64,000 bases of DNA from Maribacter orientalis (GTDB taxonomy: Bacteria > Bacteroidota > Bacteroidia > Flavobacteriales > Flavobacteriaceae), in contig NZ_FNZN01000003.1 of NCBI RefSeq assembly GCF_900109345.1, forward strand, positions 248,001 to 312,000, in the 5' to 3' direction. Both the position numbers and the translations under genes were made by a program. Positions 21,171 through 63,146 of this stretch are shown piece after piece (the first letter of the stretch is position 1; each line of letters starts with the position of its first letter). Below the pieces are notes generated by a model, which made no database searches, had not been told where the DNA came from, and saw nothing but the letters and a program-made list of their open reading frames with translations.

Positions 21171-21182
21171 TGACAAATATCA
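21171..21182 (-). promoter_or_regulatory. CRP/FNR-type box (TGACAAATATCA)
   Basis: Matches TGAY-N4-RTCA. It is followed after 23 bases on the minus strand by TAAATTAG (21140..21147). Promoter of the small helical protein gene starting at 21113, and perhaps of the D-lactate dehydrogenase after it. Confidence 0.8.
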
Positions 21183-21218
21183 GTTTCTATTGGCGTTTAG
21201 CAGAAAATGTTATTTGTA

Positions 21219-21641
21219 TTAAAAGTCGTTCAAGTTTAAAATACCGCCGGTGTAGTTGAAAATTTCTAATTTCAATTTTTGAAAATTTTCTAAACAAGAA
21301 TCTATTTTGGCCTGTAGCTTGTCATGTTTACGATAAAAACTTAATTCATATTTAATATCAGTACAGTCTAATAGACACCCTAAATTATTTTCATGAATAG
21401 AAATATCAATAAGAAGAGTTTTTTTGGTGTTTTTAATTTTCTGGATACGTATTTTGTATTCCTGTAAGCGTTCAAAAAGATTTCGTGTTTTGGGTTGAAA
21501 AATTTGACTATCTAATAGACGTTCGGCTAAGGTCAGTTCATCATCCATGATTTGAAAGCGTGTTTTCCATTGCTGTGTTTTCCAATGAAGGTCTTCTAGT
21601 TTCTTGTTCTTCTGACTTGTTCTTATTTGTTCTTTTCCCAT
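21219..21641 (-). CDS. Small helical protein, second member of the paralogous family
   Basis: 140 residues, strongly charged and helical, no signal peptide. The N-terminal core HWKTQQWKTRFQIMDDELTL lines up with the other two members, and the C-terminal core YELSFYRKHDKLQAKIDSCL keeps the Tyr-x-Lys-His pattern. It has its own box (21691..21702). Function unknown; its expression with USPs and the other paralogues suggests a stress role. Confidence 0.72.
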   Translation of the reverse strand: MGKEQIRTSQKNKKLEDLHWKTQQWKTRFQIMDDELTLAERLLDSQIFQPKTRNLFERLQEYKIRIQKIKNTKKTLLIDISIHENNLGCLLDCTDIKYELSFYRKHDKLQAKIDSCLENFQKLKLEIFNYTGGILNLNDF

Positions 21642-21690
21642 TATTGATAGGTCTACGTATAAAACTACTACCCAATAAAAAAGAAAACAA

Positions 21691-21702
21691 TGATGTAGGT
21701 CA
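21691..21702 (-). promoter_or_regulatory. CRP/FNR-type box (TGATGTAGGTCA)
   Basis: Followed after 23 bases on the minus strand by TAGTTTTA (21660..21667), then the start codon at 21641. Confidence 0.8.
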
Positions 21703-22020
21703 GAAACTAAAATTTAAGTAATAAACCTATGTTTCCTTTAATTGGAGACTAATTAATTACTTAGTAAAAACATTTATAATCTACTCTATATGCGCCAAAA
21801 GAGTAGACTTTGAATGATTAAGAAATTCATTACTAGTAATGGTCCACATATAATTATAATATGGTTCTAATTGGTTTAGAGCTACCTAGACCGGCAAATG
21901 TCACAACTATTATTTTAATTGTCAAATCAGAAAATATTGTAATTGTATTGACTATCAACAAATTCAGAAAGGTCTTAATTCTATTTTTCAAATTCCTTTA
22001 TACTTCATGATTTTTTGTAA
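21703..22020. other. 318-base gap with no gene seen
   Basis: AT-rich, no convincing frame on either strand and no box. It separates the USP gene at 22021..22860 from the promoter of the preceding small gene; it may contain the USP transcript's 3' end. Confidence 0.4.
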
Positions 22021-22860
22021 TTAATGTAAAGCTAAAATAGGAACGATAGCATTATATCCTATTTCCTTGACCATGGGTTTAGAAAAAATGCTACTGAAGA
22101 AAAAGTGCTTACGATTAATAAATGCAATCATATCGCTGTCCCTACTTTCAACAAAACTGGTTAAACCATCTGAAACATCTTTTAGAGAGAGGGTATGAAA
22201 GCTATGGTTTAAGGTACCCAATATATCTCCTAACAATTTCTGGTTGTTCAATTGTTCATCATTCAATTCGACATTTTTTGCAACATATAATACCCGGATT
22301 GCAGTGTCGTGCATTTTTGAAATTTCAATAAGATAACTCAATTCTTTGCGCTTAAAGGCGGACTTATAATCTGTAGGGAATACTATCTCTTTGGGGGACG
22401 AAAATCGAACATTTTCCGGAACGGCCAAAACAGGACATTCCCTAATTTTCTCCATGGTGTTGACCGTATTGCTTCCAAAAATCAGACCTTTGGCACCAGT
22501 AGCTCCTTGGGTGCCCATAACTACTAAATCGATATCTTTTTCAGCAATTATTTGCTTTAAAGCTTCCTCTAAAAAATTGAAGGTAGAAATGGTATGGTAT
22601 GAATGTTTCACATTGTTATGGTGTAGCTTTAGAATATCCAAGAGTTTATTAAACTCTTCTTCTGATCTAGTCTTTGCGGCTTCATATTCCGCACTACCAG
22701 GTTCAGGAATAAATAGGTTGTCGGTACTATAACTATCCAACCTAAAAACGTTTAAAAAGTAAAATTCACATTTAATTTCTTTATAAAGATTAAGCGCATA
22801 CCTGATGGCATTAAGGGCGTTTTTTGAAAAATCTGTAGGTACTAATATTCTCTTGTCCAT
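22021..22860 (-). CDS. Tandem-domain universal stress protein
   Basis: 279 residues, two USP domains (about 1-140 and 145-279). Domain 1 starts MDKRILVPTDFSKNA and keeps the ATP-binding glycine motif GTQGATGAKGLIFGSNT. Domain 2 has lost it, ending instead in a NRKHFFFSSIFSKPMVKEIG stretch. This pattern recurs in most USPs of this window. Probably a nucleotide-dependent stress regulator in the cytoplasm. Its own box lies upstream. Confidence 0.93.
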   Translation of the reverse strand: MDKRILVPTDFSKNALNAIRYALNLYKEIKCEFYFLNVFRLDSYSTDNLFIPEPGSAEYEAAKTRSEEEFNKLLDILKLHHNNVKHSYHTISTFNFLEEALKQIIAEKDIDLVVMGTQGATGAKGLIFGSNTVNTMEKIRECPVLAVPENVRFSSPKEIVFPTDYKSAFKRKELSYLIEISKMHDTAIRVLYVAKNVELNDEQLNNQKLLGDILGTLNHSFHTLSLKDVSDGLTSFVESRDSDMIAFINRKHFFFSSIFSKPMVKEIGYNAIVPILALH

Positions 22861-22917
22861 TTTTTATTTATTTGAGGTTTCCAGAGTAAATATATTTTGT
22901 GGTTAATATTTTTGCTA

Positions 22918-22929
22918 TGATTATAATCA
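22918..22929 (-). promoter_or_regulatory. CRP/FNR-type box (TGATTATAATCA)
   Basis: Perfect palindrome, followed after 23 bases on the minus strand by TATATTTA (22887..22894) and the USP start at 22860. The box overlaps the stop codon (22927..22929) of the upstream USP gene. Confidence 0.85.
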
Positions 22930-23775
22930 GTCTTGAGCGGGAAGAATTAAAAACGGGGTTTCTGAATACATGCTTACATCTTTTATAACAGGTTCACGGG
23001 TCAATTTTTCAAAAAGGTTATGTTTTTGATTAACCATTGAATACAGGTCTACATTCAATTTTTCGAGAAATTCCTGAATGACCTTCGCTTTGTCGTCGAA
23101 CAATTGTCTCCAATGAAACGTATGGTCGACATCCTTTAGGCAGATATCCAACAATTTTTTGTTTGATTCTTGTTCGGTATTTAAAATTTCTTCTTCCGTG
23201 ATATGCAATACTCTAATTTTTGCATTTAAAAGTGAGGCAATAAATAACAAAGGTTCTATGGATTTTTTGGCACACCCTTTCTTGAAATCAGTGACAAAGG
23301 CGATTTCTTTAGGTTCTTTATATTCCATTTCACCAGGAATGGCAAGAATTGGACAATTATTAATTTTGTTCGCTACCTGTATTGTATTGCTACCAAAGAA
23401 AATATCAGCTGCTTCGGTAAGACCTTTATTGCCCATAACAACCAAATCTATATGCCGCTTATCAATTGTTTTGGTGATTATCTTAGATAGAATTCCTTTT
23501 TCTGAGATGGTCTGAAACTGATGATCGGGGTTATCATTGTCCAATACAATTTTGTGCATTGTCTTTGTTAAATTTTCCTCAGATTCAAGTTTTAGTTTTT
23601 CAAGTAGTTTTTTACTAACTAGCAATTTTGGTTTTTTTCCTTGTAAGGGTGTTAATTTGTTGAATACATTCAATAAATAAAAATTGCATGATTTTGATGC
23701 CAATAATTTTGTAACGTAGAAAAGTGCACAGTAGGCGTTGTTAGAAAAATCTGTAGCGACAAGTATATTCTTCAT
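22927..23775 (-). CDS. Tandem-domain universal stress protein
   Basis: 282 residues. Domain 1 begins MKNILVATDFSNNAY, with the ATP motif GNKGLTEAADIFFGSNT. Domain 2 is degenerate (NQKHNLFEKLTREPVIKDVS). It starts only 6 bases after the end of 23782..24618 and has no box of its own, so it should be transcribed from the box at 24673. Its stop codon lies inside the next gene's box. Confidence 0.92.
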   Translation of the reverse strand: MKNILVATDFSNNAYCALFYVTKLLASKSCNFYLLNVFNKLTPLQGKKPKLLVSKKLLEKLKLESEENLTKTMHKIVLDNDNPDHQFQTISEKGILSKIITKTIDKRHIDLVVMGNKGLTEAADIFFGSNTIQVANKINNCPILAIPGEMEYKEPKEIAFVTDFKKGCAKKSIEPLLFIASLLNAKIRVLHITEEEILNTEQESNKKLLDICLKDVDHTFHWRQLFDDKAKVIQEFLEKLNVDLYSMVNQKHNLFEKLTREPVIKDVSMYSETPFLILPAQD

Positions 23776-23781
23776 AATATT

Positions 23782-24618
23782 TTAATTTTGAGGGAGTACC
23801 ATAAAGGGAACGGTAATGTGTAATCCTATTTTTTTAATAATTGGTTCAATAAACAATCGTTCCAAAAAAGTGTGTTTATTCTTCACCATCACCAATAGGT
23901 TTATTTTTTGTTTTATCTGAAATTCATTGATAGCTTCTATGATACCATTATCAGGTAATTCATGAAACAATGCCTGGTTTCCTAATAATTTTTCAAGCGT
24001 TGCTTTGTGCTTTTCTTGAATTGTGGTAAGGTTATACCCTGCTCTTACGTGCATTACATTAATTCTTGATTTATGTTTTGTTGCAATTGCCAACAAAGTC
24101 TCCATATTCCCTTTTTTATATTCAATCTCATAATCGGTAGGGAATAATATTTCTTTGGGAGCTTCATAATCAAAATTTGGTGGAACGGCAATGACGGGGC
24201 ATTTTGCTTTTTTGATTACATGAACCGTATGCGTGCCAAATAAAATTTCAGTGGCACCGGTAACGCCCTTTGTTCCCATTACTATTACATCTATATTTTC
24301 TGCCGCTACAGTTTCTAAAACTTCACTTATTAGTGTATTGAAAGCAGAATGAACAATTATCGTATGGATAGGGTTTGGGTATTGACGTTCTAAGCTATCT
24401 TTCAATTTCTCTAATTGTGTCATACTACTTTCCTGTAAAATATCTCCTAGACCAATTTGACCAGGGCTACCAATAATGTATTCGGTCTGATAAACGGGTG
24501 GGGTATAGGTATGCAACAAATAGAAGGTAGTTTTAACGTCTTTATAGACCTTTAGCGCATAACGAATAGCTTCTTTAGAGTTATCGGAAAAATCAGTAGG
24601 TAAGAGAATTCGTGACAT
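23782..24618 (-). CDS. Tandem-domain universal stress protein
   Basis: 278 residues. Domain 1: MSRILLPTDFSDNSKEA start and the complete ATP motif GTKGVTGATEILFGTHT. Domain 2: degenerate end KNKHTFLERLFIEPIIKKIG. It is the first gene of a two-USP operon and divergent from trxA; both are driven from one shared box at 24673..24684. Confidence 0.93.
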   Translation of the reverse strand: MSRILLPTDFSDNSKEAIRYALKVYKDVKTTFYLLHTYTPPVYQTEYIIGSPGQIGLGDILQESSMTQLEKLKDSLERQYPNPIHTIIVHSAFNTLISEVLETVAAENIDVIVMGTKGVTGATEILFGTHTVHVIKKAKCPVIAVPPNFDYEAPKEILFPTDYEIEYKKGNMETLLAIATKHKSRINVMHVRAGYNLTTIQEKHKATLEKLLGNQALFHELPDNGIIEAINEFQIKQKINLLVMVKNKHTFLERLFIEPIIKKIGLHITVPFMVLPQN

Positions 24619-24672
24619 AAATATATAAGGTATGATTTACATAAAATTAAGGCAATGAAATTTGAATAACCA

Positions 24673-24684
24673 TGACCTTGGTCA
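24673..24684. promoter_or_regulatory. Bidirectional CRP/FNR-type box (TGACCTTGGTCA)
   Basis: Perfect palindrome almost exactly midway between divergent starts (24618 minus, 24735 plus). 23 bases away on the minus side is TAATTTTA (24642..24649), and 23 bases away on the plus side TATTTTTA (24708..24715). One site therefore seems to activate both the USP pair and thioredoxin. Confidence 0.85.
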
Positions 24685-24734
24685 GTTCAATAAATTATGC
24701 TTTAAACTATTTTTAGCATTTAAATGATAAATGA

Positions 24735-25034
24735 ATGAAAAGTAGTTTTTCTAAAATTATAGAATCTGAAATTCCAGTTCTTGTAGATTTTTATGCAGAT
24801 TGGTGTGGACCATGTAAAATGCTGGCCCCTATTTTAAAACAAGTAAAAGTTGAAATGGGTGAAGCCATTAAAATTGTCAAAATTGATGTGGATAAGAACC
24901 AATCGATAGCTGCTAAATATCAAGTGCGAGGAGTGCCTACCATGTTATTATTCAAAAAAGGGAAACAGCTTTGGCGACAGTCAGGGGTATTGCAAAAGAA
25001 CGATTTAATTCAAATCGTAAAATCCCATGCCTAA
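24735..25034 (+). CDS. trxA: Thioredoxin
   Basis: 99 residues, a standard thioredoxin. The active site WCGPCK has Cys24 and Cys27, and the cis-proline is in RGVPTML. It reduces protein disulfides in the cytoplasm. It has no signal peptide. It is coregulated with the divergent USP pair through the shared box. It could supply electrons to the class II ribonucleotide reductase encoded in the same island; that link is inference. Confidence 0.95.
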   Translation: MKSSFSKIIESEIPVLVDFYADWCGPCKMLAPILKQVKVEMGEAIKIVKIDVDKNQSIAAKYQVRGVPTMLLFKKGKQLWRQSGVLQKNDLIQIVKSHA

Positions 25035-25140
25035 ATTATATTTTAGAATTTATAGTTCATCTACAATTTTAGTAGACATTCTATTAGTCCAATAATATGG
25101 TAAATGGTCAAAAATTTAATCCTTTTAAGTTTTGCAAGCT

Positions 25141-25980
25141 TTATTCATGAATTACCAGAAATGGAACAGTTAAGTGGTAACTAATTCTCTCAACTTTTGG
25201 TCTAAACAGAATACGCTCTATGAAATTGAGGTTTTTTGTAACCATTACGATCATATCTAAATTGCAACTTTCTACAAAATGTTGAACGGCTATGTCAATT
25301 TTTTTTGCCGTTAGGGTATGAAATGAATAGGCTATGTCTGTAAAAAAATCTTTTAAAAATTCACGATTTTTTAATTGGTCTAGACTAAGTCCATTTCCTT
25401 TAGAAGCCACGTATAAAAATCGTATAGCAGAATTATGCATCATAACAAGCTCTTTTATCTTTTTCATGACCGTTGCATCATACCCTAAAAGAAAATCTGT
25501 TGGAAAACCTATTTCTTTTGGGTCGCTATATTTTGCCTTTTCTGGTACTGCTAATACAGCACACGGTACTTTGGTGATAACATTGCCAGTATTGCTGCCT
25601 AAAGAAACAGCTTTTATGCCCGAGGCCCCTTTGGTGCCCATAATAATTAATTCAATGTTTTTATCTATTACTTCTTGTTTTATATAATCGGTAAAAAAAC
25701 CATACATAGCTTTGGTTTCATATGTATGCTTCATATTTAGCGGTAATTTTTGAATCTTTTCTATTAAAGATTTTAATTTTCCCCTGCTCTCCTTTAAAAT
25801 ACTTTCTTCACGTATTTCTGGAGGTACGAACATGGTGCTTTCACTACCCGAATATGGTTGAATAGGATGTACATGGATCAAATAAAAAGTGCACTTAATA
25901 TTTTTAAATAATGATGTACCGTAAATAATGGCATTCCATGCATTGTCAGAGAAATCTGTTGGAATCAGTATGTTTTTCAT
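25141..25980 (-). CDS. Tandem-domain universal stress protein
   Basis: About 279 residues from Met at 25980 (MKNILIPTDFSDNAW). An in-frame Met at 26001 lies within the promoter -7 element and would precede the transcription start, so it is rejected. Domain 1 has GTKGASGIKAVSLGSNT. Domain 2 ends with the degenerate TKNLNFIERILFRPKVERIS pattern shared with its paralogues. Convergent with trxA. Confidence 0.93.
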   Translation of the reverse strand: MKNILIPTDFSDNAWNAIIYGTSLFKNIKCTFYLIHVHPIQPYSGSESTMFVPPEIREESILKESRGKLKSLIEKIQKLPLNMKHTYETKAMYGFFTDYIKQEVIDKNIELIIMGTKGASGIKAVSLGSNTGNVITKVPCAVLAVPEKAKYSDPKEIGFPTDFLLGYDATVMKKIKELVMMHNSAIRFLYVASKGNGLSLDQLKNREFLKDFFTDIAYSFHTLTAKKIDIAVQHFVESCNLDMIVMVTKNLNFIERILFRPKVERISYHLTVPFLVIHE

Positions 25981-26031
25981 AGTACCTATTGATTTAGCCA
26001 TAAATGTAGCCGCACTTAATGTGATTATAAA

Positions 26032-26043
26032 TGATTATAATCA
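26032..26043 (-). promoter_or_regulatory. CRP/FNR-type box (TGATTATAATCA)
   Basis: Perfect palindrome, identical to the box at 22918. TACATTTA follows after 23 bases (26001..26008, minus strand). It serves the USP gene starting at 25980. Confidence 0.85.
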
Positions 26044-26058
26044 TGCAAGTAATGTATC

Positions 26059-27012
26059 TTATAATTCTAACCAGCCCAATGCAGCAGGGCCTAATACGGC
26101 ATCGCTACTTGTAGCGGTTGATAATAGTACCTTAATTTTGCCTTTGTAGGCATTAAAAAGATATTTGTCCATATGGGTTTTTATCGGTTGTAGAAGAATA
26201 TCGCCTGCCTTGCTTAGACCGCCGGATAGTATAAATGCCTCTGGATCTAAATGGGCAACTGTATCTGCCATTTTGCTTCCAAGAACTTCACCTGTTTTTT
26301 CAAAAGCGGTAATCGCTATTAAATCTCCTTTTAGAGCCGCATTTGAAATATCTGTTCCGGTCATATCTTCAAAACTAATACTGCGTAAAGGGGAATCTTC
26401 TGTCATATCTGCCATTAACTCAAAGACTGTTCTTTTGATACCGGTTACCGATGCGTAGGTTTCCAGACAGCCCTGTAATCCGCAATTACACTCTCTTCCA
26501 TTTGGATCCACATTAACATGGCCAATTTCTCCTGCAGCACCGTGTTCCCCAATTAATAGTTTGCCATCTACAATGATTCCGCTTCCAAGGCCGGTACCTA
26601 AAGTCAATGCCACAAAATTCTTCATTCCTTTCGCAGCACCAAAAACCATCTCACCTAATGCGGCGGCATTCGCATCGTTGGCTAGAGATACAGGCAGCAT
26701 AAAAGTTTGATTGATAATCTTTGATATTGGAGTTATCTTGCCCCATTTCAGATTCGGAGGATTTTCAATTTGACCTGTGTATGGGTTGGCATTGGGAGCG
26801 CCAACACCTATAGAAAGTATTTGTATTTCTCCATCCCATTTTTGAATAAGGGTTTCCACTTCCAATTTTAGTTTTTCCATAAAACTTGGAAACGGATTTT
26901 GAGCATTGGTTTTGAAAACGGTCTTGTCCAAAATATTTCCTTCTCTAGTAACGAGGCCAACCTTAGTAAGGCTACCACCAATGTCAATTCCTAAAACGAC
27001 CTCTTTTGCCAT
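26059..27012 (-). CDS. ROK-family sugar kinase, probable glucokinase
   Basis: 317 residues. The N-terminal ATP motif is LGIDIGGSLTKVGLV, with a sugar-binding ANDANAAALGE region. The ROK zinc motif is GHVNVDPNGRECNCGLQGC followed by LETYAS. It would phosphorylate glucose, or another hexose, with ATP. With the two PfkB kinases and the D-lactate dehydrogenase it completes a glycolytic, fermentative theme in the island. It has its own box and -7 element. Confidence 0.88.
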   Translation of the reverse strand: MAKEVVLGIDIGGSLTKVGLVTREGNILDKTVFKTNAQNPFPSFMEKLKLEVETLIQKWDGEIQILSIGVGAPNANPYTGQIENPPNLKWGKITPISKIINQTFMLPVSLANDANAAALGEMVFGAAKGMKNFVALTLGTGLGSGIIVDGKLLIGEHGAAGEIGHVNVDPNGRECNCGLQGCLETYASVTGIKRTVFELMADMTEDSPLRSISFEDMTGTDISNAALKGDLIAITAFEKTGEVLGSKMADTVAHLDPEAFILSGGLSKAGDILLQPIKTHMDKYLFNAYKGKIKVLLSTATSSDAVLGPAALGWLEL

Positions 27013-27060
27013 ACCATTTAATTTTTGTTCAAATTAAAATATTCTTATGTCGATTTCAAC

Positions 27061-27072
27061 TGATATTTGTCA
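27061..27072 (-). promoter_or_regulatory. CRP/FNR-type box (TGATATTTGTCA)
   Basis: On the minus strand a -7-like TTAATTTG (27030..27037) follows after 23 bases; the TTTG is aligned, the TA is shifted by one. Start of the ROK kinase at 27012. Confidence 0.75.
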
Positions 27073-27245
27073 TCATATTTCAATAAGATATAGTGTTAAG
27101 TGACTTATTTTAATACCATAAATGCATGACTATATTGTTATCATTACCACCACCAATGAATTAAATAAGAGCTTGTATTGTTAGTCAATTAGAATTTCTA
27201 CACGTTGGGTAAAAATTCTATTAAAAATCTATTTCTAGTAAAGTG

Positions 27246-28091
27246 TTACTCTGAAGTTTGTGGTATAACCAAAAAGGGAATTGTAGTATGGTATCCAATA
27301 AAGTCTACGTTAGATTTCACTGTTAACCTTTCTAAAAAGGAATGTTTTCTGCTCATCATTACCAAAAGTCCAGATTGGTGTTCTTCAATATATGTTCGGA
27401 TTGCCTCGGGCATCAATTTACCTCTTTCCTCTACGAAATCGGGATTAATATTTATAAAATAATCCATTAGCGCCTTTTTATTCACCTTCTGTTCATCGAC
27501 CAAATCATACTCTTCTTTTACGTGTAATATGGTTAATTTTGCTTTGTGGGTATTTGAGAGGTTAATTAAGAGTTTTAAGTCTTTATCGTGGTATAATTGT
27601 TCATAATCGGTAGGAAAAATAATAGAATTTATTTCTTTAAACTCATAACCAACAGGCACAACCAAAATTGGAATCTTTGATTTTCTAATGACGTGAACGG
27701 TATTTGTTCCCAGAAAAATTTCCTTGGCACCAGTTGCCCCTTGCGTTCCCATTACGATCAAATCAAAATCTTTGGTTTCTGAAAGTTCCAAGATCTCATT
27801 GGTCAAGGTGTTAAATGCAGAAAGCGTCTTAAATGTATGTTTGGGGTTATTAAATTTTAGTTTTATATCCACTAAAGTTTTATCTAGACCTGCCTGTGCA
27901 ATTTCTACTCCCTTATCGGGTATTGCACTAAAGGTTGGCCCACCCATCAAATAATCCATGCGATAAAAAGTTGGGGTATACGTGTGTAGTATTTGAAATT
28001 CGCATTTCTCAGTTTTAAAAAATTCAAGGGCATAACAAATGGCGTTCCATGCGTTATTTGAGAAATCTGTAGGCAAGAGTATATGTTTCAT
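27246..28091 (-). CDS. Tandem-domain universal stress protein
   Basis: 281 residues. Domain 1 begins MKHILLPTDFSNNAW with ATP motif GTQGATGAKEIFLGTNT. Domain 2 has the degenerate SRKHSFLERLTVKSNVDFIG end. It starts 17 bases after the stop of 28109..28954 with no box between, so it is the second gene of a two-USP operon driven from 29008. Confidence 0.93.
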   Translation of the reverse strand: MKHILLPTDFSNNAWNAICYALEFFKTEKCEFQILHTYTPTFYRMDYLMGGPTFSAIPDKGVEIAQAGLDKTLVDIKLKFNNPKHTFKTLSAFNTLTNEILELSETKDFDLIVMGTQGATGAKEIFLGTNTVHVIRKSKIPILVVPVGYEFKEINSIIFPTDYEQLYHDKDLKLLINLSNTHKAKLTILHVKEEYDLVDEQKVNKKALMDYFININPDFVEERGKLMPEAIRTYIEEHQSGLLVMMSRKHSFLERLTVKSNVDFIGYHTTIPFLVIPQTSE

Positions 28092-28108
28092 AGTACAGGA
28101 GTTAAATA

Positions 28109-28954
28109 TTATCTGGGTAAGTTCTGCATGACCATAAATGGAATTTTAGGATGTAACCCAATATCAACAACAGTAGACCGATATAACAGATCTTCTAAAT
28201 AGGAATGCCGAGCATTGACCATGACCAATAGATTAATATCCTTTTCTAAAATATATTCCATAATTGCCTCGCCTTTATTTTTAACTGGCGTACGTTCATC
28301 AAACAGGTAGGCATTAGGTAAAGATTCTTGTAAGAACTGCTTGTTGTCAATTTGTCGATGGCTTAACTCTTCAAAATCAGAAATATAAAGACAGTGTACT
28401 TCAGATTTAAACTCAGCGGCCAAAGTATTCAATAGTTTTAGTTCTCTACGTTTATATGGCAACATGTAGTCGGTAGGAAATAGGATTTTTTTAGGTTGTC
28501 GATATTCGTAGTTTTCAGGAATGGCCAGAACGGGACAAGAGACATATTTGAATACTTGTACCGTATGGCTGCCAAACGTAATTTTTTTGTCGGCAGTCTT
28601 ACCTTGGGTTCCCATAATTACAAGATCTACATTGATTTGGTTGGCTAAATCATTGACCGCATCGACCAAAGACTCAAAAGTAGATACGGTTTTAAAACTG
28701 TGTTTAGGATTGTGGTATTTTTCGGTAAGTTCGGTTATTGTATTTTTTAGTGACTGATCTACATTTTTTCTGGTGATTTCTTTTTGCTCTTCTATCGACT
28801 TGCCCCCATTCTCTTTAAAAGGTCCGTATATCTCATCGGCATAGGCATGTAAAAAATAGAAATTAGTGCGTTCGCATTTGTATAGCTGTATGGCATATTT
28901 TATTGCATGCATGGCATTTTTCGAAAAATCGGTAGGAATCAAAATAGTGGTCAT
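28109..28954 (-). CDS. Tandem-domain universal stress protein
   Basis: 281 residues. Domain 1 begins MTTILIPTDFSKNAM; its ATP motif GTQGKTADKKITFGSHT has lost the second glycine, so nucleotide binding is less certain than in its siblings. Domain 2 is degenerate (NARHSYLEDLLYRSTVVDIG). First gene of a two-USP operon. Confidence 0.92.
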   Translation of the reverse strand: MTTILIPTDFSKNAMHAIKYAIQLYKCERTNFYFLHAYADEIYGPFKENGGKSIEEQKEITRKNVDQSLKNTITELTEKYHNPKHSFKTVSTFESLVDAVNDLANQINVDLVIMGTQGKTADKKITFGSHTVQVFKYVSCPVLAIPENYEYRQPKKILFPTDYMLPYKRRELKLLNTLAAEFKSEVHCLYISDFEELSHRQIDNKQFLQESLPNAYLFDERTPVKNKGEAIMEYILEKDINLLVMVNARHSYLEDLLYRSTVVDIGLHPKIPFMVMQNLPR

Positions 28955-29007
28955 AGCATTTTTTTTTATGATTATTTAAAAATATTCCTATCATAACTTA
29001 ATACCTA

Positions 29008-29019
29008 TGATATATGTCA
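29008..29019 (-). promoter_or_regulatory. CRP/FNR-type box (TGATATATGTCA)
   Basis: Followed after 23 bases on the minus strand by TATTTTTA (28977..28984), then the USP start at 28954. Confidence 0.82.
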
Positions 29020-29055
29020 TTACGGGTATATGTGGTAAAAGAGGAATAGGTATTA

Positions 29056-29907
29056 TTATCCCTGAAGCGACAAAAGTGGTATACTCGTATTAAAGCTTAC
29101 CTCTTCTACTGTGGTGTCTAAGAATGACCTTTGAATTAGGCCATAATCCTTTGAAATCATAATAATTAGATCGGCATTCATACTTTCTGCAAAAATTTGA
29201 ATGCCATCTTCTATCTGTTTAGATACAACCCTATGAAAACTAATCGGATTCGGTAATTTTTCAGAGAGCCGCTGCACCAATTGTTCTTGTTGTAGTTCTA
29301 TTTCCTCAAAAAGTGGCATCTGTGACTTTGTAACATAAAGCAATTTAATTTGTGCTTTCTCTGAGTTAAGGTTATTTGCTATTTTCCTTAAAATAGAATC
29401 GTCAAAATCAACTTCAAAATCAATAGGAATAACCACTTGTTTGAAATTCTTGAACTTTGCTTTGTCAGGTACCACGAGTACATCACATTCTACTTTTGTA
29501 ATTACATCTCCCGAACGGGTGCCGATAAAAAATTCCTTAAGTTCAGAGGCACCTCGAGTACCCATTATAATAAGATCGATTTCTTTTTCTTGAATATGCT
29601 TGCGGATAGTTGTCAGAAAATAGCCCTGTTCGCGCATCGTAGTAAAATGATGATGTTCTTTTTTTGAGGATAGCGACGCTATAAATTTCTCCAAGTCCTT
29701 TAGCTTATGACTGATGGCCTTGGGCTCAATTTCTACCAGAACATTCGTACCAAACTCATAAACGGGCTTTTCTGTAATGTTCGAACCTTCTATATTGATA
29801 TAAAGAATAAAAAATTGACAAGGATTTTCTTTGAATAAGTCCACCGCATAACGAATGGAATTCTTTGAGTTCTTGGAAAAATCAGTAGGAATTAAAATCT
29901 TTTTCAA
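29056..29907 (-). CDS. Tandem-domain universal stress protein
   Basis: 283 residues. Domain 1 begins MKKILIPTDFSKNSK. Its glycine motif GTRGASELKEFFIGTRS is somewhat altered (second glycine missing). Domain 2 ends SKDYGLIQRSFLDTTVEEVS, the degenerate pattern. It has its own box at 29963. Confidence 0.92.
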   Translation of the reverse strand: MKKILIPTDFSKNSKNSIRYAVDLFKENPCQFFILYINIEGSNITEKPVYEFGTNVLVEIEPKAISHKLKDLEKFIASLSSKKEHHHFTTMREQGYFLTTIRKHIQEKEIDLIIMGTRGASELKEFFIGTRSGDVITKVECDVLVVPDKAKFKNFKQVVIPIDFEVDFDDSILRKIANNLNSEKAQIKLLYVTKSQMPLFEEIELQQEQLVQRLSEKLPNPISFHRVVSKQIEDGIQIFAESMNADLIIMISKDYGLIQRSFLDTTVEEVSFNTSIPLLSLQG

Positions 29908-29962
29908 CGGTCTTTCTTTTTTATATTTTAAGAAAAATAGTGTCGATAATGTCTAAAAACTA

Positions 29963-29974
29963 TGATTTTGGTCA
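29963..29974 (-). promoter_or_regulatory. CRP/FNR-type box (TGATTTTGGTCA)
   Basis: Followed after 23 bases on the minus strand by TATTTTTC (29932..29939), then the USP start at 29907. Confidence 0.82.
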
Positions 29975-29992
29975 GGTCAAGAATTTTGTAAC

Positions 29993-30829
29993 CTACTCAT
30001 GAAGTACAAATATCGGTATCGTAGTGTGAAAACTTAACTTTTCAATAGTCGTATCGAATAATAGTTGCTGAAAAAAGTTAAGGTTTTTGGCTACCATCGT
30101 TAGCATTTCTATTTGATTTTCGCCAACAAAATTTAAAATGGCTTCCTTGATGTTTTTATTGGTCACATTATGAAAATTATGTGTACCCACGAATATTTCT
30201 TCTAAATAATCTTGTAAATATTCTTTATTTTTTTCTTGAGTGCATGTAAGTATCCCATTGGCTTGTGATACGTTTAAAACATTAAAATTGGCCTTCGAGA
30301 TTCGTAGCTGATCTGAAAGCGTATTTAATATGGGGTGGGTATAAAAGATATTATAATCGGTTGCGAATGCGATTTTCTTTGGTTTTGTAAGCGGTGCATT
30401 TTCTGGTATTACCAATACGTTACAGATTACTTTGGTAATTACATCGCCTGTATTGCTACCAACAACAGCTGTTCGTAAGCCCGATGTCCCTTTTGTGCCC
30501 ATAACAATAAGGTCAATTTTTTTTTCATAGACCGTTTTTCGTATGATATCTATAAAATTACCATATTCTTGAAGTACAATTAGATGATGTTTTTGGTGAA
30601 CCAGTAACCGCTCGACGCGCATAGAAAATAAATCGATATTTTTTTTAATTGTAGCTAATATTTTTTTGCTAGGAAAAGCAAAGGAATTGCTATTTACACC
30701 AGAGTATTTTAACTCGCCAATGTGTAAAATGTAGAAAGTGCAGCTCTCGTTTTTAAAGAACCGTAGAGCATATTCTAAAGCATTCCAAGAATTGGCCGAA
30801 AAATCTGTGGGTAATAAAATGTGCTTCAT
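29993..30829 (-). CDS. Tandem-domain universal stress protein
   Basis: 278 residues. Domain 1 begins MKHILLPTDFSANSW and holds the full ATP motif GTKGTSGLRTAVVGSNT. Domain 2 has the degenerate KNLNFFQQLLFDTTIEKLS end. The strong promoter just upstream has a perfect -7 element. Confidence 0.93.
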   Translation of the reverse strand: MKHILLPTDFSANSWNALEYALRFFKNESCTFYILHIGELKYSGVNSNSFAFPSKKILATIKKNIDLFSMRVERLLVHQKHHLIVLQEYGNFIDIIRKTVYEKKIDLIVMGTKGTSGLRTAVVGSNTGDVITKVICNVLVIPENAPLTKPKKIAFATDYNIFYTHPILNTLSDQLRISKANFNVLNVSQANGILTCTQEKNKEYLQDYLEEIFVGTHNFHNVTNKNIKEAILNFVGENQIEMLTMVAKNLNFFQQLLFDTTIEKLSFHTTIPIFVLHE

Positions 30830-30877
30830 TCACTATAGTTGCACTTCAAATGTAAGCTATCGAAAGAAATGAATATA

Positions 30878-30889
30878 TGATATTAATCA
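30878..30889 (-). promoter_or_regulatory. CRP/FNR-type box (TGATATTAATCA)
   Basis: Followed after 23 bases on the minus strand by TACATTTG (30847..30854), an exact TAnnTTTG, then the USP start at 30829. Confidence 0.87.
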
Positions 30890-34860: not shown

Positions 34861-34861
34861 T

Positions 34862-35173
34862 TTAAATGGCTTTTCTACTTTGTTCAAATTTTTCTTTGCG
34901 TTTACTTAATTGCCTTTCTAGGTCACTAATAGTATTTGCAGCAGATTTTTCAAAATTATTTTCGCTGGATTCGGCAAATATTCTAGGTCCGGGGGCGCTG
35001 AGTTGAATTTCACAGATTTTATCGTTTCCATCACTGCCGTTTCCTAATTTGAAAAAAACCTCGGCACGAATGATAAACTGATATTTGTTACCTAATTTTT
35101 GAAGATTACGAGTTACGATTTCACTTAACGAATTACTTTCGGGCATGTGTAAGTATTGAAAATTGATTGTCAT
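34862..35173 (-). CDS. Ribosome-hibernation HPF/RaiA-like protein
   Basis: 103 residues, the size of short HPF/YfiA proteins. It begins MTINFQYLHMPESNSLSEIV and has the family pattern of a first strand, a long helix and KYQFIIRAEVFF. Short HPFs bind the 30S decoding region and inactivate ribosomes in stasis. The acidic Gly-Asn insertion is unusual, so the assignment is by fold pattern. First gene of an operon with a USP; divergent from the DUF2267 gene, sharing one box. Confidence 0.82.
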   Translation of the reverse strand: MTINFQYLHMPESNSLSEIVTRNLQKLGNKYQFIIRAEVFFKLGNGSDGNDKICEIQLSAPGPRIFAESSENNFEKSAANTISDLERQLSKRKEKFEQSRKAI

Positions 35174-35229
35174 AATGTGTTTGGTCTTAGTTTCTTTTCA
35201 AAAATATCACTGCTATTCTTTTTATAAAA

Positions 35230-35241
35230 TGACCTGTGTCA
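35230..35241. promoter_or_regulatory. Bidirectional CRP/FNR-type box (TGACCTGTGTCA)
   Basis: It lies exactly equidistant (about 62 bases from its centre) from divergent starts at 35173 and 35298. The minus side has TATTTTTG (35200..35207, 22-base spacing). The plus side has the weaker AAAATTTA (35265..35272, 23-base spacing). Confidence 0.83.
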
Positions 35242-40928: not shown

Positions 40929-40989
40929 ATTCAGTTCTTTTAATTACTTGTATAGAATCAAATGTAATGGTTCGCCTAAAGGTCTCATA

Positions 40990-43285: not shown

Positions 43286-43353
43286 TTTTATACGCTTTAA
43301 GATGAATGTAATTTTGAGGTATAATTAAATGTATAACCTTAAAATAAAATAAT

Positions 43354-46990: not shown

Positions 46991-47002
46991 TGACTAATAT
47001 CA
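46991..47002. promoter_or_regulatory. CRP/FNR-type box (TGACTAATATCA) of the kinase/REC-CRP operon
   Basis: On the plus strand TACATTTG (47026..47033), an exact -7 element, follows after 23 bases and points to the LOV kinase operon. On the minus strand TAATTTTT (46960..46967) follows at the same spacing and points to the remnant at 46761..46958. The plus transcript would have a leader of about 330 bases before 47369. Confidence 0.82.
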
Positions 47003-50300: not shown

Positions 50301-50506
50301 ACCAAAAGAATTTGTTTGATCGTTTTTTTCGTGCCGAGAACGCAACAAATATTAGTGGTACAGGCCTTGGGCTTCATATAGTTAAACACTATGCAGAGTT
50401 GATGCGAGGCACTGTAAAATTCAAAAGTAAAACCGGTAACGGAAGCACCTTTACCGTTCAACTTCCCCAAAAATTATATGAACATGAAAAAAATATTATT
50501 AATTGA
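47369..50506 (+). CDS. Multi-PAS/LOV hybrid-sensor histidine kinase
   Basis: 1045 residues, cytoplasmic, no membrane segment. PAS-type domains lie at about 18-130, 135-255, 265-380, 385-500, 510-635 and 680-790, then a coiled coil, HisKA with His823 (ASHEFRTPLS) and HATPase (NALKYSEEG, DNGIGIP, GTGLGLHIVKHY). The fifth PAS is a LOV domain: GVNCKFLQNDDRDQ has the photoactive cysteine (Cys556), and the flavin contacts lie in RNYRKDGSLFWND and GVQNDVTE. Blue-light sensing is therefore likely. The other PAS domains could add redox or ligand signals. Its end overlaps the REC-CRP gene by 29 bases, so the two are coupled. Confidence 0.93.
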   Translation: MNRLKEKDNRKQKVTEASIYQAIFDSSLAGLFVLDAEGNILKVNAKSERMFGYKKGALLNKNIEIIFPKRFKKEIEFFIKNPPSDPIQILGLDKNGVEFAIDFRMVRTVVEDQTISAVYCKNADLAVFESDRKLRTLVANAPGIVYRCKTDKLWTMEFLSNACESISGYVPEQFYERGNLSWGTLIHTNDRGEVNNERRKAISKKESYQICYRITTATNKLKWILEIGSCVENQLGKVDFLEGFMQDVTNQKEAEISLTKEKELLYKYLETAASIFLVINIDHKITMVNRKACEVLGYEAKEMVGKNWFNHYIPKSQRKDLAQFFDLMTKGKLEPPDFKENWVIAKGNIRKLIRWRNALLKDENGMVTGLISSGIDVTEQVNAERELRASVNKNKAIIEALPDVLTVHDKKGTVLEIHVPDESYLVAPIAEIEGKNIKDLLPKELGDQLKNITQTVLRNQKMETLEVTAPVANGTVDYECRFVPFNKNQVLTIARNISKTKEIQKMLHLRNKALDAAGNGIIIVDAQQPDMPIIYCNNAFTEITGYNREEVLGVNCKFLQNDDRDQEAIVTMVKAIQKGEASRVFLRNYRKDGSLFWNDLSITPLFNENQILTHFIGVQNDVTEIHNAKNQLEQYANKLEEKVANRTKEIEATVQKLVENNLILEDQIQETKLAESEAQRSQAQFNAIAENFPNGFIVVFNADCELVYLEGEELKRMNLNKADFEGKHIDEISIFSKRQIEQVKQDLIKTIAGNSISFEVEFGDFCYAVNTTPLKSEENIVWALFVYNNITEQKNVQEKLAKALKEEQELNELKSRFISMASHEFRTPLSAILSSAILIGKQNEPGMEERREKHVSRIRNHVKHLVVILNDFLSLSKLEEGKVDAKPQYFDLIEYCKIVIDEMESTKKKGQVIKFNHTSAEIPVFLDPKLLSHILINLLSNALKYSEEGNDVVMEIQQADEAVLFKIIDNGIGIPEKDQKNLFDRFFRAENATNISGTGLGLHIVKHYAELMRGTVKFKSKTGNGSTFTVQLPQKLYEHEKNIIN

Positions 50507-51551
50507 GGACAACGAAGATGTTCGTGAAAATACAGCAGAAATATTAGAACTAGCCAATTACCACGTAGTTACTGCTGAAAATGGTAAAATAGGAATAGAA
50601 AAAACGAAGGAATTCATACCCGATTTAGTGCTTTGTGATATCATGATGCCACTAATGGATGGGTTTGAAGTACTACGAGCTTTTGAAAAAGATAGTAGTA
50701 TGGCCAGTACACCCTTTATTTTTCTAACGGCAAAGACAGATAGGTCAGATATGCGCATGGGTATGAACCTAGGTGCCGATGACTATCTAACAAAACCATT
50801 TGAGGAACATGAATTGTTGGAAGCAATTTCCTGTCGCCTAAATAAGCACGAAAACTTAAAAAAAGAAATCATTAAAAATTTGGAAGGTATCAATACCTTT
50901 TTGGATGAGGTTTCTGAATATGAAGATATGCAAGGCCTTTCTAAAAGCCATAGTCTGAAGTCTTATGACAAAAAAGAGATTATCTTTTGGGAAGGGGAAA
51001 ATGCACATTCACTTTTTTTCATTGAAAGTGGAAACGTAAAAACCTATAAAGGTACCGAGTCTGGTAAAGAATTGGTTACAGGGTTATATGGACCTGGCGA
51101 TTTTGTCGGACAATTATCACTATTACACGCTGCAGGTACATACGTAGAAAATGCGGTTATTTTGCAAGATGCACAACTTTGTGCCATACCTAAGGCCGAT
51201 TTTATAAAATTACTTTATGCTAACCCAATGGTCTCTCAGAAGTTTATTTCTCTAATTTCTAATAACTTAATCAACGTTCAGTCGCATTTAGTAGATATGG
51301 CCTTTGCTACGGTACGACAACGTGTGGCCAAAGCACTATTGGAACTATACGAGAAAGGACTTATTAAAGATAAACCGAATGAAGGTATGTCAATTCCTCG
51401 TGAAGATTTTGCAGGTATGATCGGCACGGCCACTGAAACTGCCATTCGCACACTTTCCGATTTTAAAGATGAAGGTTTGATTACTACAGATCGAGGTCGA
51501 AGAATTATTATTCTAGATAAAGAAGAATTACTACATATTGCAGATTTTTAA
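50478..51551 (+). CDS. Response regulator fused to a CRP/FNR-type DNA-binding protein
   Basis: 357 residues. The receiver is at 1-125 (IEDNEDVREN, phospho-acceptor Asp54 in LCDIMMP, FLTAKT, TKPFEE). A linker precedes the cNMP-type beta barrel at about 155-265 (KEIIFWEGENAHSLFFIESG, GDFVGQLSLL) and the winged HTH at about 285-350, with recognition helix GTATETAIRTLSDFKDEG. No N-terminal cysteine cluster as in oxygen-sensing FNR is visible. It should bind FNR/CRP-like palindromes when phosphorylated and is the best candidate for binding the 26 boxes. The internal Met3 is an alternative start. Confidence 0.92.
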   Translation: MNMKKILLIEDNEDVRENTAEILELANYHVVTAENGKIGIEKTKEFIPDLVLCDIMMPLMDGFEVLRAFEKDSSMASTPFIFLTAKTDRSDMRMGMNLGADDYLTKPFEEHELLEAISCRLNKHENLKKEIIKNLEGINTFLDEVSEYEDMQGLSKSHSLKSYDKKEIIFWEGENAHSLFFIESGNVKTYKGTESGKELVTGLYGPGDFVGQLSLLHAAGTYVENAVILQDAQLCAIPKADFIKLLYANPMVSQKFISLISNNLINVQSHLVDMAFATVRQRVAKALLELYEKGLIKDKPNEGMSIPREDFAGMIGTATETAIRTLSDFKDEGLITTDRGRRIIILDKEELLHIADF

Positions 51552-52731: not shown

Positions 52732-53400
52732 TTAAACGAACTCAGGGTAAGATTGTACTACAATATCATTTTGTACATGTCGAACACCATTAGCTTTATA
52801 GGCTGTTTTTTCAATCAAATCCCGTTCTTTTAAAGAATGTACTCTACCCTTAAGCTGTACAGTATCGCCATCAACCTGAACTCGAATACCTTTGGCCATT
52901 AAATTGGTAGAACGCTCTAAGGCCTGGGTAATTTGTTCTTCAATATTCTTGGCTTTTGCCACTGGTATTATCTCGATGTTGTTGACGACCCCCTTTACTC
53001 CTAATAAGTTTTGTAAACTGTGTTCGGCCTCTTTTCGTTGATAGTCCCAAGCTACATTGCCTGATAGATATATATAACCATCTTCAACAAAAACCATGAT
53101 GTTTTCTTTGGGTATTTTGGCGTTCCATTCCAAAGCATGTACTGCTGCTTTTGCAATTTCCTTATCGGTCTTTTTAAAATCTTCACCATATTTTACCTCA
53201 ATATCTTCAGCAACCGCTTTGACGCCAATGACCCGCTTCGCAACTTTATTGGCCACGGCTTTTTTGTGGTATTCATTTACAACGCCACTTAGCGTTACAA
53301 CACCATCTTCAACTATGACCCCGATTTGGGTCTCGTCTATGTTGGGCTCAAATACGAGTTCATCTAATATATCTTGTTTTATTTGTGCATCTGATTTCAT
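52732..53400 (-). CDS. Triple-BON-domain protein
   Basis: 222 residues made of three BON domains at about 3-70, 78-147 and 152-220. Each has the glycine pattern of GVVTLSGVV, GYIYLSGNV and DTVQLKGRV. No signal peptide is visible, unlike E. coli OsmY, so it is probably cytoplasmic. BON domains bind phospholipids or other hydrophobic ligands and occur in osmotic-shock proteins. It is closely related to 54885..55553. It has its own box. Confidence 0.92.
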   Translation of the reverse strand: MKSDAQIKQDILDELVFEPNIDETQIGVIVEDGVVTLSGVVNEYHKKAVANKVAKRVIGVKAVAEDIEVKYGEDFKKTDKEIAKAAVHALEWNAKIPKENIMVFVEDGYIYLSGNVAWDYQRKEAEHSLQNLLGVKGVVNNIEIIPVAKAKNIEEQITQALERSTNLMAKGIRVQVDGDTVQLKGRVHSLKERDLIEKTAYKANGVRHVQNDIVVQSYPEFV

Positions 53401-54884: not shown

Positions 54885-55553
54885 TCATGCATATGTGGGA
54901 TAGTATTGAACTTTAAGTTTGTTAACAACATGAAGTACTCCTGGAGCTCTAAATGCCGCTTTTTCCGCTTCCTCTTTTTCTTTGATTGAGTTTACTTTTC
55001 CACTAAGGGTTACCGTATTACCATCGGTAGAGACCATAATTCCCTTTGCATCAATTCGCGCAGATCTCTCAAAAGCTTCCTCGATGGTGTCTTTTACCAA
55101 TATGGGTTTTACATCTTGTTTAATCGAAATACTATTGGAAACGCCTTTAACACCCACCAAATCTTTTACGGCATTTGTAGCTGAATATTTTTGGTAAGCC
55201 CATTTAACAGCTCCCGAAAGGGACACCCAACCATTTTCTACTTTTACAATAACAGAGTCATTGGGTACCGAAGAATGCCATTCTAAGGCGTCAACAGCGG
55301 CCTTGGCAATTTCTGTATCTGATTTATCCAAACTTGACGGATATTTCACGACGATATCTTCTGCGACCGCTTTTACACCACTCACCCGTTTGGCCGCTTT
55401 TTCAGCTGCTAGTTTTTTAGAATGGCTATCCACTTCGCCGCTTAAGGTAACGACACCTTCGTCAACTGCGACGCCGATTTTGGTTTCATCTATACTAGGT
55501 TCCCATGCCAGTTCGTCTTGTACATCTAGTTTAATTTTCGCATCTGTTTTCAT
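54885..55553 (-). CDS. Triple-BON-domain protein (second copy)
   Basis: 222 residues, the same length and architecture as 52732..53400. The three BON domains are at about 3-70, 78-147 and 152-220, with GVVTLSGEV, GWVSLSGAV and NTVTLSGKV. No signal peptide. The box and -7 element lie far upstream, giving a leader of about 117 bases, unlike most regulon genes. It is ended by the strong terminator at 54818. Confidence 0.92.
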   Translation of the reverse strand: MKTDAKIKLDVQDELAWEPSIDETKIGVAVDEGVVTLSGEVDSHSKKLAAEKAAKRVSGVKAVAEDIVVKYPSSLDKSDTEIAKAAVDALEWHSSVPNDSVIVKVENGWVSLSGAVKWAYQKYSATNAVKDLVGVKGVSNSISIKQDVKPILVKDTIEEAFERSARIDAKGIMVSTDGNTVTLSGKVNSIKEKEEAEKAAFRAPGVLHVVNKLKVQYYPTYA

Positions 55554-61018: not shown

Positions 61019-61030
61019 TGATATAGGTCA
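61019..61030. promoter_or_regulatory. Bidirectional CRP/FNR-type box (TGATATAGGTCA)
   Basis: Minus side: TATATTTA (60988..60995) for the small gene at 60961. Plus side: TAGTTTTG (61054..61061), an exact match, for the USP gene. Both spacings are 23 bases. Confidence 0.85.
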
Positions 61031-61084
61031 TTTTAAAGTATGTTAATGGTTAATAGTTTTGAACTCAAATTAAAAGAGATCAAA

Positions 61085-61945: not shown

Positions 61946-61972
61946 TTATACCACTTAAAATAACCACCTATT

Positions 61973-62266
61973 ATGGCCAGAAGAATATTTAGAATAGTAA
62001 TAGTAATTTCAATTGCATTGGCAATTTATCTATTTGCCTTAAAAGATAATCATACGAAAAGTTTTCTTATAGTTGCTTCTAGTCTAACATTTCTGATGTT
62101 TAGTTTTGGAATACATGGACTTATAGCACACTCACTACAACCTAATTCCAAAGGGAATTTAATTGTATATCCTATATTGATGTGGGCACTTTGGGCTGTT
62201 CTATTTTTACTATTTGTATTTTTTGTAATACCTATTTACTGCCCCGACTTTTTAATTGATTTCTAG
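61973..62266 (+). CDS. Small membrane protein
   Basis: 97 residues with three predicted membrane helices (IVIVISIALAIYLFAL, FLIVASSLTFLMFSFGI and YPILMWALWAVLFLLF). No known family. It is 27 bases downstream of the USP gene and likely in its operon. Confidence 0.7.
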   Translation: MARRIFRIVIVISIALAIYLFALKDNHTKSFLIVASSLTFLMFSFGIHGLIAHSLQPNSKGNLIVYPILMWALWAVLFLLFVFFVIPIYCPDFLIDF

Positions 62267-62267
62267 T

Positions 62268-63077
62268 TTATTGAAAACGGTAAACAATCTTTGTCTTTTT
62301 ATTTAAATTGATGGTATCAATTTGCTTCGGATTTCCGGTAACGTAAATCTTACCACTGCCTTGACCATTTATTTTAAGACGGTCTTCGGCAAATACCTGA
62401 ATATCTTCAGAGTTTGATGAGAAAAGATATACGTCTTTAGCTAAGAGTGCCCAAGCATATAATTGTGCTTTGTTGCCTACTGTTGCACTTAACGATTGTG
62501 TCTTTCCATTCAAACTTACTATACTCTTGTCTGATTGTTTCACCATTACTTTGTTAGATTTTAGTTTCATTGAGGTGTTCGAGGCTCCTTTGGCATCGAT
62601 ATGTACATTTTTTGAGTCTACAGATATATTTCCTGTACTCGCACCATCCATAATCAAATTAAAATTCTGACAATCGACAAGTAAGTTGTAATAGGATTCA
62701 TCTAAAGAATACAGTGTAAAGCTGTCTGCAACTAATTTTTCATTGGTATCTATTGAAGCCGTATCTGACAATTTCACTTCTTTCAGATCACTTATATAAA
62801 GAATAATTTCGGCATTACTGGCCAAAGTGTTTTCTTGAATAGTATAAAGAATAAGCGTTGAATTTTCAAATTTCCATTTTATAATGTCCTTTAGACTTCT
62901 ATCTCCATTAATCTGTACACCATAAAAATAGGTAGGGTATAGATTAACACAAAGATTGTTATGTATTTCAATGGTCTTAACACCCTCAAGGGTTGCGTAA
63001 GAACTGAATGTTTTGTCTTCTTGCGCGAATAGGTAATTGAAAGATAAGACTACGATAATACACCAGGCTATTTTCAT
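62268..63077 (-). CDS. DUF2807 (GIN-domain) putative adhesin
   Basis: 269 residues with a signal peptide (IVVLSFNYLFAQ). The mature part is a right-handed beta-helix-like repeat (the 'head GIN domain', DUF2807): GVKTIEIHNNLCVNLYP, ASNTSMKLKSNKVMV. Secreted or surface-located, function unknown. It shares the box at 63135 with the divergent quinone oxidoreductase gene. Confidence 0.78.
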   Translation of the reverse strand: MKIAWCIIVVLSFNYLFAQEDKTFSSYATLEGVKTIEIHNNLCVNLYPTYFYGVQINGDRSLKDIIKWKFENSTLILYTIQENTLASNAEIILYISDLKEVKLSDTASIDTNEKLVADSFTLYSLDESYYNLLVDCQNFNLIMDGASTGNISVDSKNVHIDAKGASNTSMKLKSNKVMVKQSDKSIVSLNGKTQSLSATVGNKAQLYAWALLAKDVYLFSSNSEDIQVFAEDRLKINGQGSGKIYVTGNPKQIDTINLNKKTKIVYRFQ

Positions 63078-63134
63078 AATTGAGATATAGACAATTTAAG
63101 TGTGAAATTTATTTACTAATAGGTGATTTAAAAA

Positions 63135-63146
63135 TGACAACGGTCA
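63135..63146. promoter_or_regulatory. Bidirectional CRP/FNR-type box (TGACAACGGTCA)
   Basis: Minus side: TAAATTTC (63104..63111) for the DUF2807 gene. Plus side: TACCTTAC (63170..63177) for the quinone oxidoreductase. Both spacings are 23 bases. Confidence 0.82.

Follow-up and report, generated by a model that had tools for sequence, protein, structure and literature searches.

In the window analyzed here, the 64,000-nucleotide stretch from position 248001 to position 312000 of contig C11 in the Maribacter orientalis genome (G000; 4.16 Mb in 26 contigs), every intergenic copy of the palindromic box TGAY-N4-RTCA is accompanied on at least one strand, after exactly 23 bases (N23), by an element resembling TAnnTTTG. 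This combination of box, spacer, and element, referred to here as the module, occurs throughout the genome and is shared by most of the sampled genomes of the family. Its spacing and conservation, together with the published position of the sigma-A element, strongly support assigning the sites to a CRP/FNR-type regulon with class II promoter geometry. As a whole, the observations are explained best, and quite probably, by class II CRP/FNR boxes whose main user would be a CRP-type regulator with a receiver domain encoded in the window (REC-CRP, here called type A) and whose target genes would make up a survival programme.

The window contains 32 boxes, 30 of them between positions 21001 and 64000 (the island) and 2 between positions 1 and 21000. 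Judged from the list of open reading frames (ORFs), the boxes at 31798, 36189, 36222, and 57940 in the island and those at 10190 and 17649 are genic. The 26 intergenic boxes begin at 21171, 21691, 22918, 24673, 26032, 27061, 29008, 29963, 30878, 33511, 35230, 37176, 40990, 43165, 43274, 46991, 51624, 52700, 53449, 53509, 55705, 57572, 57629, 60412, 61019, and 63135. An earlier note on this DNA had counted 26 intergenic boxes between 21171 and 63146, a number that our recount reproduced once the genic boxes were set aside, and had seen none in the intergenic parts of the sugar region, whose two boxes (10190 and 17649) are indeed both inside genes. The element was scored as present when at least five of the six fixed bases of TAnnTTTG matched, and offsets of 8 to 44 were compared. 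At N23 it accompanied 26 of the 26 intergenic boxes, at any other offset 0 to 2 of the 26, and none of the six genic boxes had it at N23. Two of the latter, 36189 and 36222, lie 33 bases apart inside the gene for a flavin mononucleotide-binding protein and probably arose by chance. The note had described the same constant spacing with one exception at 22; the spacing stands, and the exceptional box, which does score at N22 as well, yet fits 23. The five exact copies of TAnnTTTG that the note listed are all correct, and a sixth that it overlooked belongs to box 35230 on the minus strand (TATTTTTG).

Markov sequences modeled on the island (orders 1 to 3; 60 sequences each) contained a mean of 2.2 to 2.7 boxes, with a maximum of 10, against 30 in the island. 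Pairs of box and N23 element, counted per strand, averaged 0.00 to 0.05 in these sequences, where the island has 27. The expectation in the note that chance matches would be few and without fixed spacing was borne out, and these controls, with the reversed-pattern controls given below, rule out a chance origin of the module. At boxes 24673, 46991, and 61019, elements with good scores flank both sides, so that one site could drive two divergent genes.

The earlier note had described the module for the island only, a scope that proved too narrow, as sites on C11 run to position 326068 and further clusters are present on C10 and C17. A motif scan, which the note had proposed as a check, found the module at N23 both in the genome and in its relatives, with far lower numbers in the controls. 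For the whole genome, TGAYNNNNRTCA followed after 10 to 38 bases by TANNTTTR was searched, with the reversed pattern as a control. There were 100 matches in this range of spacings, 67 of them at N23; no other spacing exceeded 3, and the control had 30 matches in all. These 67 modules are distributed over C17 (27), C11 (24), C10 (10), and four further contigs (6). A second Hsp20 gene (C10:410179-410722; 78% identical) has a box with TACCTTCA at N23, read by eye, which the strict pattern missed, and 67 is therefore a lower bound.

Outside this genome, stretches of 40 to 80 kb around the type A ortholog in each of ten relatives contained 120 matches at N23, and over spacings of 8 to 44 no other value had more than 6. 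The surroundings of REC-CRP genes were also searched in 80 named Bacteroidota loci, which were assigned to classes by name. The 28 of Flavobacteriia type gave 90 matches at N23 and at most 3 at other spacings from 15 to 31, and the peak at N23 was also present in the Cytophagia-type (5), Chitinophagia/Saprospiria-type (8), and unplaced (12) loci. The exact module was found in 137 of the 149 genomes of the family sample, own genome included, with 2,182 copies against 79 in the reversed control, which makes it a nearly noise-free sequence rule by which CRP/FNR-type promoters of the family can be located. In a sample of 198 genomes from the phylum, searched for TAnnTTTG at N23, 84 genomes had a match; the matches, summed by hand, numbered 182 in 19 genomes of the family, 16 in 2 of the same order, 91 in 28 of the same class, and 58 in 149 others, against 4, 0, 7, and 7 in the controls for the same four groups. 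The genome-wide, family, and named-locus counts rule out the module as a property of the island alone.

The sigma-A element TAnnTTTG of Flavobacterium psychrophilum spans positions −12 to −5 (PMC9723704). With N23 in between, this position would place the box at −47 to −36 and its center at −41.5, in agreement with the estimate in the note of a center near −41, typical of class II. In the stretches of the own genome examined, start codons followed the deduced transcription start by a median of 22 nucleotides (range, −1 to 147) at 59 of 76 sites, the other 17 having no fitting ORF of at least 70 amino acids; the note had put most of them at 20 to 30 bases, which accords with this median. Around the type A genes, the base before TGA is A or C at 149 of 154 sites and the base after TCA is T at 143 of 154. 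Class II CRP/FNR promoters in general resemble these in having a palindromic TGA..TCA site at about −41.5 before the sigma element but differ in that the element here is the Bacteroidota TAnnTTTG and in that dozens of promoters in one genome share one spacing. The literature examined, as far as its text was available, named no such regulator-promoter pair in flavobacteria, and a literature search in which subscription journals were mostly not covered found no printed description of the promoter rule. Each box is a predicted site for a dimer of the CRP/FNR fold at −41.5 before a Bacteroidota sigma-A promoter, and the bound dimer would act as a class II activator at these TAnnTTTG promoters.

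The type A REC-CRP (50478..51551, plus strand) combines a receiver domain (PF00072) with a cyclic nucleotide monophosphate-binding domain (PF00027) and a Crp-type helix-turn-helix (HTH; PF13545). Orthologs with 55 to 73% identity are present in 10 of the 148 other family genomes, and in the 11 aligned sequences E10, D11, D54, T84, K106, and the recognition-helix residues E320, T321, A322, I323, and R324 are invariant. The start of the gene is overlapped by the gene for a multi-PAS histidine kinase (47369..50506, plus strand; PAS, HisKA, and HATPase domains) with a LOV domain (GVNCKFLQ). A box followed at N23 by TACATTTG (46991..47033, plus strand) begins 378 bases before the kinase ATG. A large histidine kinase lies directly 5' of the type A gene in 11 of 11 family genomes, and in 9 of the 11 type A genomes, own included, a module lies no more than 600 bases upstream of the kinase, which suggests self-activation. 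From the observed sites, spacing, conservation, and gene families we infer that the window's REC-CRP is most likely the main user of the boxes in the island, that it would be phosphorylated and thereby activated by the adjacent multi-PAS/LOV kinase, and that the box before the operon probably serves its self-activation.

Three other genes for Crp-type HTH proteins are present in the genome: a type B REC-CRP (C17), an FNR-like protein (P0003, C17:315182-315874), and a fourth regulator. The recognition helices of type A (TATETAIR), type B (IATESLIR), and the FNR-like protein (AATESLIR) have TE-x-x-IR in common, and a common box is therefore expected; the type A ortholog of G054 has KE in place of TE. 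The second kinase/REC-CRP pair and the FNR-like protein would probably share some of the sites, and this small set of regulators probably switches on a dormancy-like programme together. PF00027 and PF13545 are both over their cut-offs in P0001 and P0003, which places these proteins in the CRP/FNR superfamily. Against the NCBIfam Fnr model, P0003 scored 111.6 bits, below the cut-off of 228, and for this reason it is labeled only as FNR-like. As to the iron-sulfur cluster cysteines of FNR proper, a CENC is seen by eye, without alignment to FNR, close to its start. The fourth regulator (C17:300330-303518; L004) has 210 amino acids and a differing helix, SSRVVISR. It adjoins a membrane protein judged TSUP-like by eye, and it lies near rhodanese and radical SAM genes that bear modules.

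Module number in the family sample, in which regulator presence was called by E-value thresholds, tracks the CRP/FNR-type genes: the mean per genome is 35.7 with type A (n = 11), 25.4 with type B plus the FNR-like protein (n = 30), 14.7 with type B only (n = 25), 10.7 with the FNR-like protein only (n = 55), and 2.7, with a median of 1, where no regulator passed the thresholds (n = 28). Such tracking is at odds with the notion that box and element are the composite promoter of an alternative sigma factor in which no CRP/FNR protein takes part. The geometry is as fixed as that of a two-part promoter, but the box is a palindrome whose core is TGA, carries elements on both sides in three cases, and is followed by the normal sigma-A consensus (PMC9723704), and we hold this notion to be very improbable. 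The boxes might instead be repressor sites, with the dimer at −41.5 reaching into the −33 region and obstructing RNA polymerase. The logos speak for this, as they show T-rich bases past the end of the box at −36, in the place of a possible −33 element. A single fixed spacing, however, is the pattern expected of class II activation, whereas repressor sites usually tolerate varied positions, and repression at these sites is improbable.

A more serious alternative is that the island is mainly under the control of the FNR-like protein or the second REC-CRP and that the window's REC-CRP has other targets or a role in fine-tuning. The recognition helices of the three regulators are nearly identical, genomes with the FNR-like protein only still have 10.7 modules on average and those with type B in addition 25.4, and the FNR-like gene has a module at its own promoter. 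Furthermore, the module leaves its clearest trace at Hsp20: among the best 30 loci with Hsp20 homologs, drawn from 114 genomes with a match, 28 have a module no more than 350 bases upstream, 10 of 10 in type A genomes and 18 of 20 in the others. On the other side stands G075, a genome of the same genus with a type B REC-CRP and no type A, which has 14 modules against 67 here and Hsp20 matches of only 46 to 48% identity; this would link the presence of the island to that of type A. The center of the Hsp20 box also starts with CTA in 6 of 10 type A genomes against 1 of 18 others (p = 0.003, among related genomes that are not independent), and high GC is not the cause of CTA in two of the six, G119 and G061, since their regions are 29 and 31% GC. 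We give this alternative an appreciable chance, though one short of even. Since genomes lacking type A keep the module, as do 18 of their 20 Hsp20 homologs, the module is not diagnostic of the window's REC-CRP, and the idea that this protein is necessary for it is ruled out. Nor can the window's REC-CRP be named as the sole regulator, as its paralogs share the helix and genomes without type A carry the module.

The preferred reading, class II boxes used mainly by the window's REC-CRP in a survival programme, has further points against it. Calculated per megabase, type A genomes do not differ significantly from those with type B plus the FNR-like protein (p = 0.11), genomes with more regulators are also larger, and the relatives are phylogenetically linked, so that module counts are not independent. 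Three of the 28 genomes without a detected regulator are outliers, namely, G048 (29 modules), G147 (16), and G138 (10, with 3 in its control); two of these are incomplete (82% and 73%) and G138 is 99% complete. The named loci of Sphingobacteria type have no clear peak at N23 (for TAnnTT, 5 at N22 and 2 at N23), and in the search of 198 genomes the signal is faint outside the class. A central TA is present at 54 of 154 sites near type A and 18 of 121 near type B (Fisher p = 0.0002), but its share among type A genomes varies from 0.12 to 1.00, with 7 of 34 in the own island, and it is therefore a tendency and not a code. Finally, some genes with a module are less clearly related to survival, including those for MFS and amino acid transporters, a glycosyltransferase, HlyD/OEP efflux parts, YkuD, an ABC1 kinase, and several proteins without a Pfam match.

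Much of the programme nevertheless has the look of a state for surviving a shortage of energy or oxygen, such as those of DosR and lxa. In the island, a module of their own or of the same unit is found for Usp, Hsp20, thioredoxin, hibernation factor, PfkB, class II ribonucleotide reductase, DUF302, CDP-alcohol transferase, and BON genes. The Usp genes (PF00582) form a run on the minus strand (22021..30829; at 22021, 22927, 23782, 25141, 27246, 28109, 29056, and 29993) that is interrupted by genes for a thioredoxin and a ROK kinase and has boxes at 22918, 24673, 26032, 27061, 29008, 29963, and 30878. One palindrome of this run (24642..24715) has elements on both sides, with Usp on the minus strand and thioredoxin on the plus strand, and a box with TACATTTG at N23 (30847..30889, minus strand) lies upstream of a Usp gene. 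The box and N23 element TATTTTTG at 35199..35241 (minus strand) precede genes for Usp and for a ribosome hibernation factor (HPF/S30AE; 34862..35173, minus strand), which is over the cut-off for PF02482 and below that for TIGR00741. Upstream of the PfkB-type hexose kinase gene (39963..40928, minus strand; TIGR03168 over cut-off) there is a box with TACATTTG at N23 (40959..41001, minus strand). DUF302 and the class II ribonucleotide reductase, an adenosylcobalamin-dependent enzyme (37842..39545, minus strand; TIGR02504 NrdJ_Z, 647 bits against a cut-off of 400), come next on the same strand in what is probably one operon. The Hsp20/alpha-crystallin chaperone gene (43354..43818, plus strand; PF00011) is preceded by a box with TAATTTTG at N23 (43274..43316, plus strand). 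On its 3' side and the same strand is the gene for a P-type cation-transporting ATPase (43943..46612, plus strand; PF00122 and PF00689, and over the cut-off of TIGR01494), which has no box of its own within 250 bases. Genes for two proteins with three BON domains each (PF04972) are located at 52732..53400 and 54885..55553 on the minus strand, and a further Usp gene follows the box and N23 element TAGTTTTG at 61019..61061 (plus strand), where the opposite strand has TATATTTA at N23.

Elsewhere in the genome, such genes encode an FtsH-type protease, an E1 dehydrogenase, a small cytochrome c, a beta-CASP RNase, a ferritin-like protein, MlaE, a radical SAM protein whose match to HemN_C stays below cut-off, and the FNR-like protein. 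The site at 116888 on C17 (L038/L039) lies before a gene for a 490-amino-acid protein that, read from its sequence without a family search, resembles an F1 beta subunit of N-ATPase type; its start codon is 21 bases past the deduced start of the module.

The DosR (DevR) regulon of mycobacteria includes nrdZ, ctpF, pfkB, and hspX (PMC3095998), and the likeness to the island extends from Usp, Hsp20 (hspX), PfkB, class II ribonucleotide reductase (nrdZ), and P-type ATPase (ctpF) to two-component control (PMC3095998, PMC8044303, PMC6127331). All five kinds of gene, for Usp, Hsp20, PfkB, class II ribonucleotide reductase, and cation ATPase, are present in the island. The output domain of DosR is a LuxR/NarL-type HTH, whereas the window's regulator has a Crp-type HTH and other boxes and so is not of DosR type, and because of this different build the island is not a member of the DosR regulon. 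The lxa locus of Burkholderia cenocepacia contains six Usp genes and genes for Hsp20, BON, phosphofructokinase, and cytochrome c (PMC6127331), is raised at low oxygen (PMC6127331, PMC9104464), and was itself likened to DosR in the paper that describes it (PMC6127331). The genes of the island likewise include a cluster of Usp, Hsp20, BON, and PfkB, but in another phylum, with a kinase/REC-CRP operon within the cluster and boxes at fixed spacing at most intergenic starts. A dormancy-like gene set of mycobacteria and Burkholderia thus appears in another phylum under a differently built regulator. The anaerobox regulons of FNR, Anr, and FixK/FnrN resemble the present sites in their TTGA-N6-TCAA-like palindrome, and a rhizobial Hsp20 gene is driven by FnrN at low oxygen (PMC11784457); unlike them, the boxes here have mostly A or C before TGA, and the window's regulator carries a receiver domain and is paired with a kinase.

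A low-oxygen signal would fit the gene content, and a light signal is suggested by one domain. The LOV stretch of the window's kinase matches PDB entries for blue-light photoreceptor, phototropin, and aureochrome LOV domains (the named ones from E = 1.2e-28 on). The kinase is below the cut-offs of the NCBIfam blue-light models (155.6 bits against 250 for the YtvA-type model), and the LOV cysteine motif is present as GVNCKFLQ. As in LOV histidine kinases and YtvA-type LOV proteins, a LOV domain with the NC(R/K)FLQ motif is found in a kinase; the difference is that it stands here beside a REC-CRP gene and that the motif occurs in 8 of the 11 type A family genomes, not in all. With three further named loci added (0 of 3), the motif is present in 8 of 14 kinases adjacent to type A, L095 being left out as a probable duplicate of G054, against 0 of 39 beside other REC-CRP genes (p = 3e-6 for 8 of 14; p = 3e-7 for 8 of 11). 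In this comparison, our filter saw no kinase beside a further six REC-CRP genes, and REC-CRP genes with misfitting helices were not counted; one locus missed by the helix filter, L168, does have the motif, which makes 1 of 40 kinases seen beside other REC-CRP genes. Kinases adjacent to type A are also longer, at 673 to 1,109 amino acids against 301 to 576 beside other REC-CRP genes, and so have more room for a LOV-like domain.

Because of this LOV domain beside the REC-CRP, the signal may also be blue light or the redox state of a flavin, and a connection of the dormancy-like programme with the sensing of light or flavin redox state is suggested that can be tested. A bolder and rather doubtful proposal is that the island belongs to a light-gated, DosR/lxa-like dormancy regulon, in which a phosphorylation-controlled CRP would integrate a LOV kinase sensing blue light or flavin redox state with energy or oxygen. 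The grammar TGAY-N4-RTCA-N23-TAnnTTTG would be common to the three paralogs across much of the Bacteroidota, and the REC-CRP would have drifted to a site of its own, TGACCTAGGTCAT.

The window also contains a kinase and receiver pair of the type B kind on the minus strand (31520-33486), in which the receiver ORF ends at 31520. The Crp-HTH-like frame past this position holds many stops, and the pair therefore looks like a decayed REC-CRP with an intact kinase.

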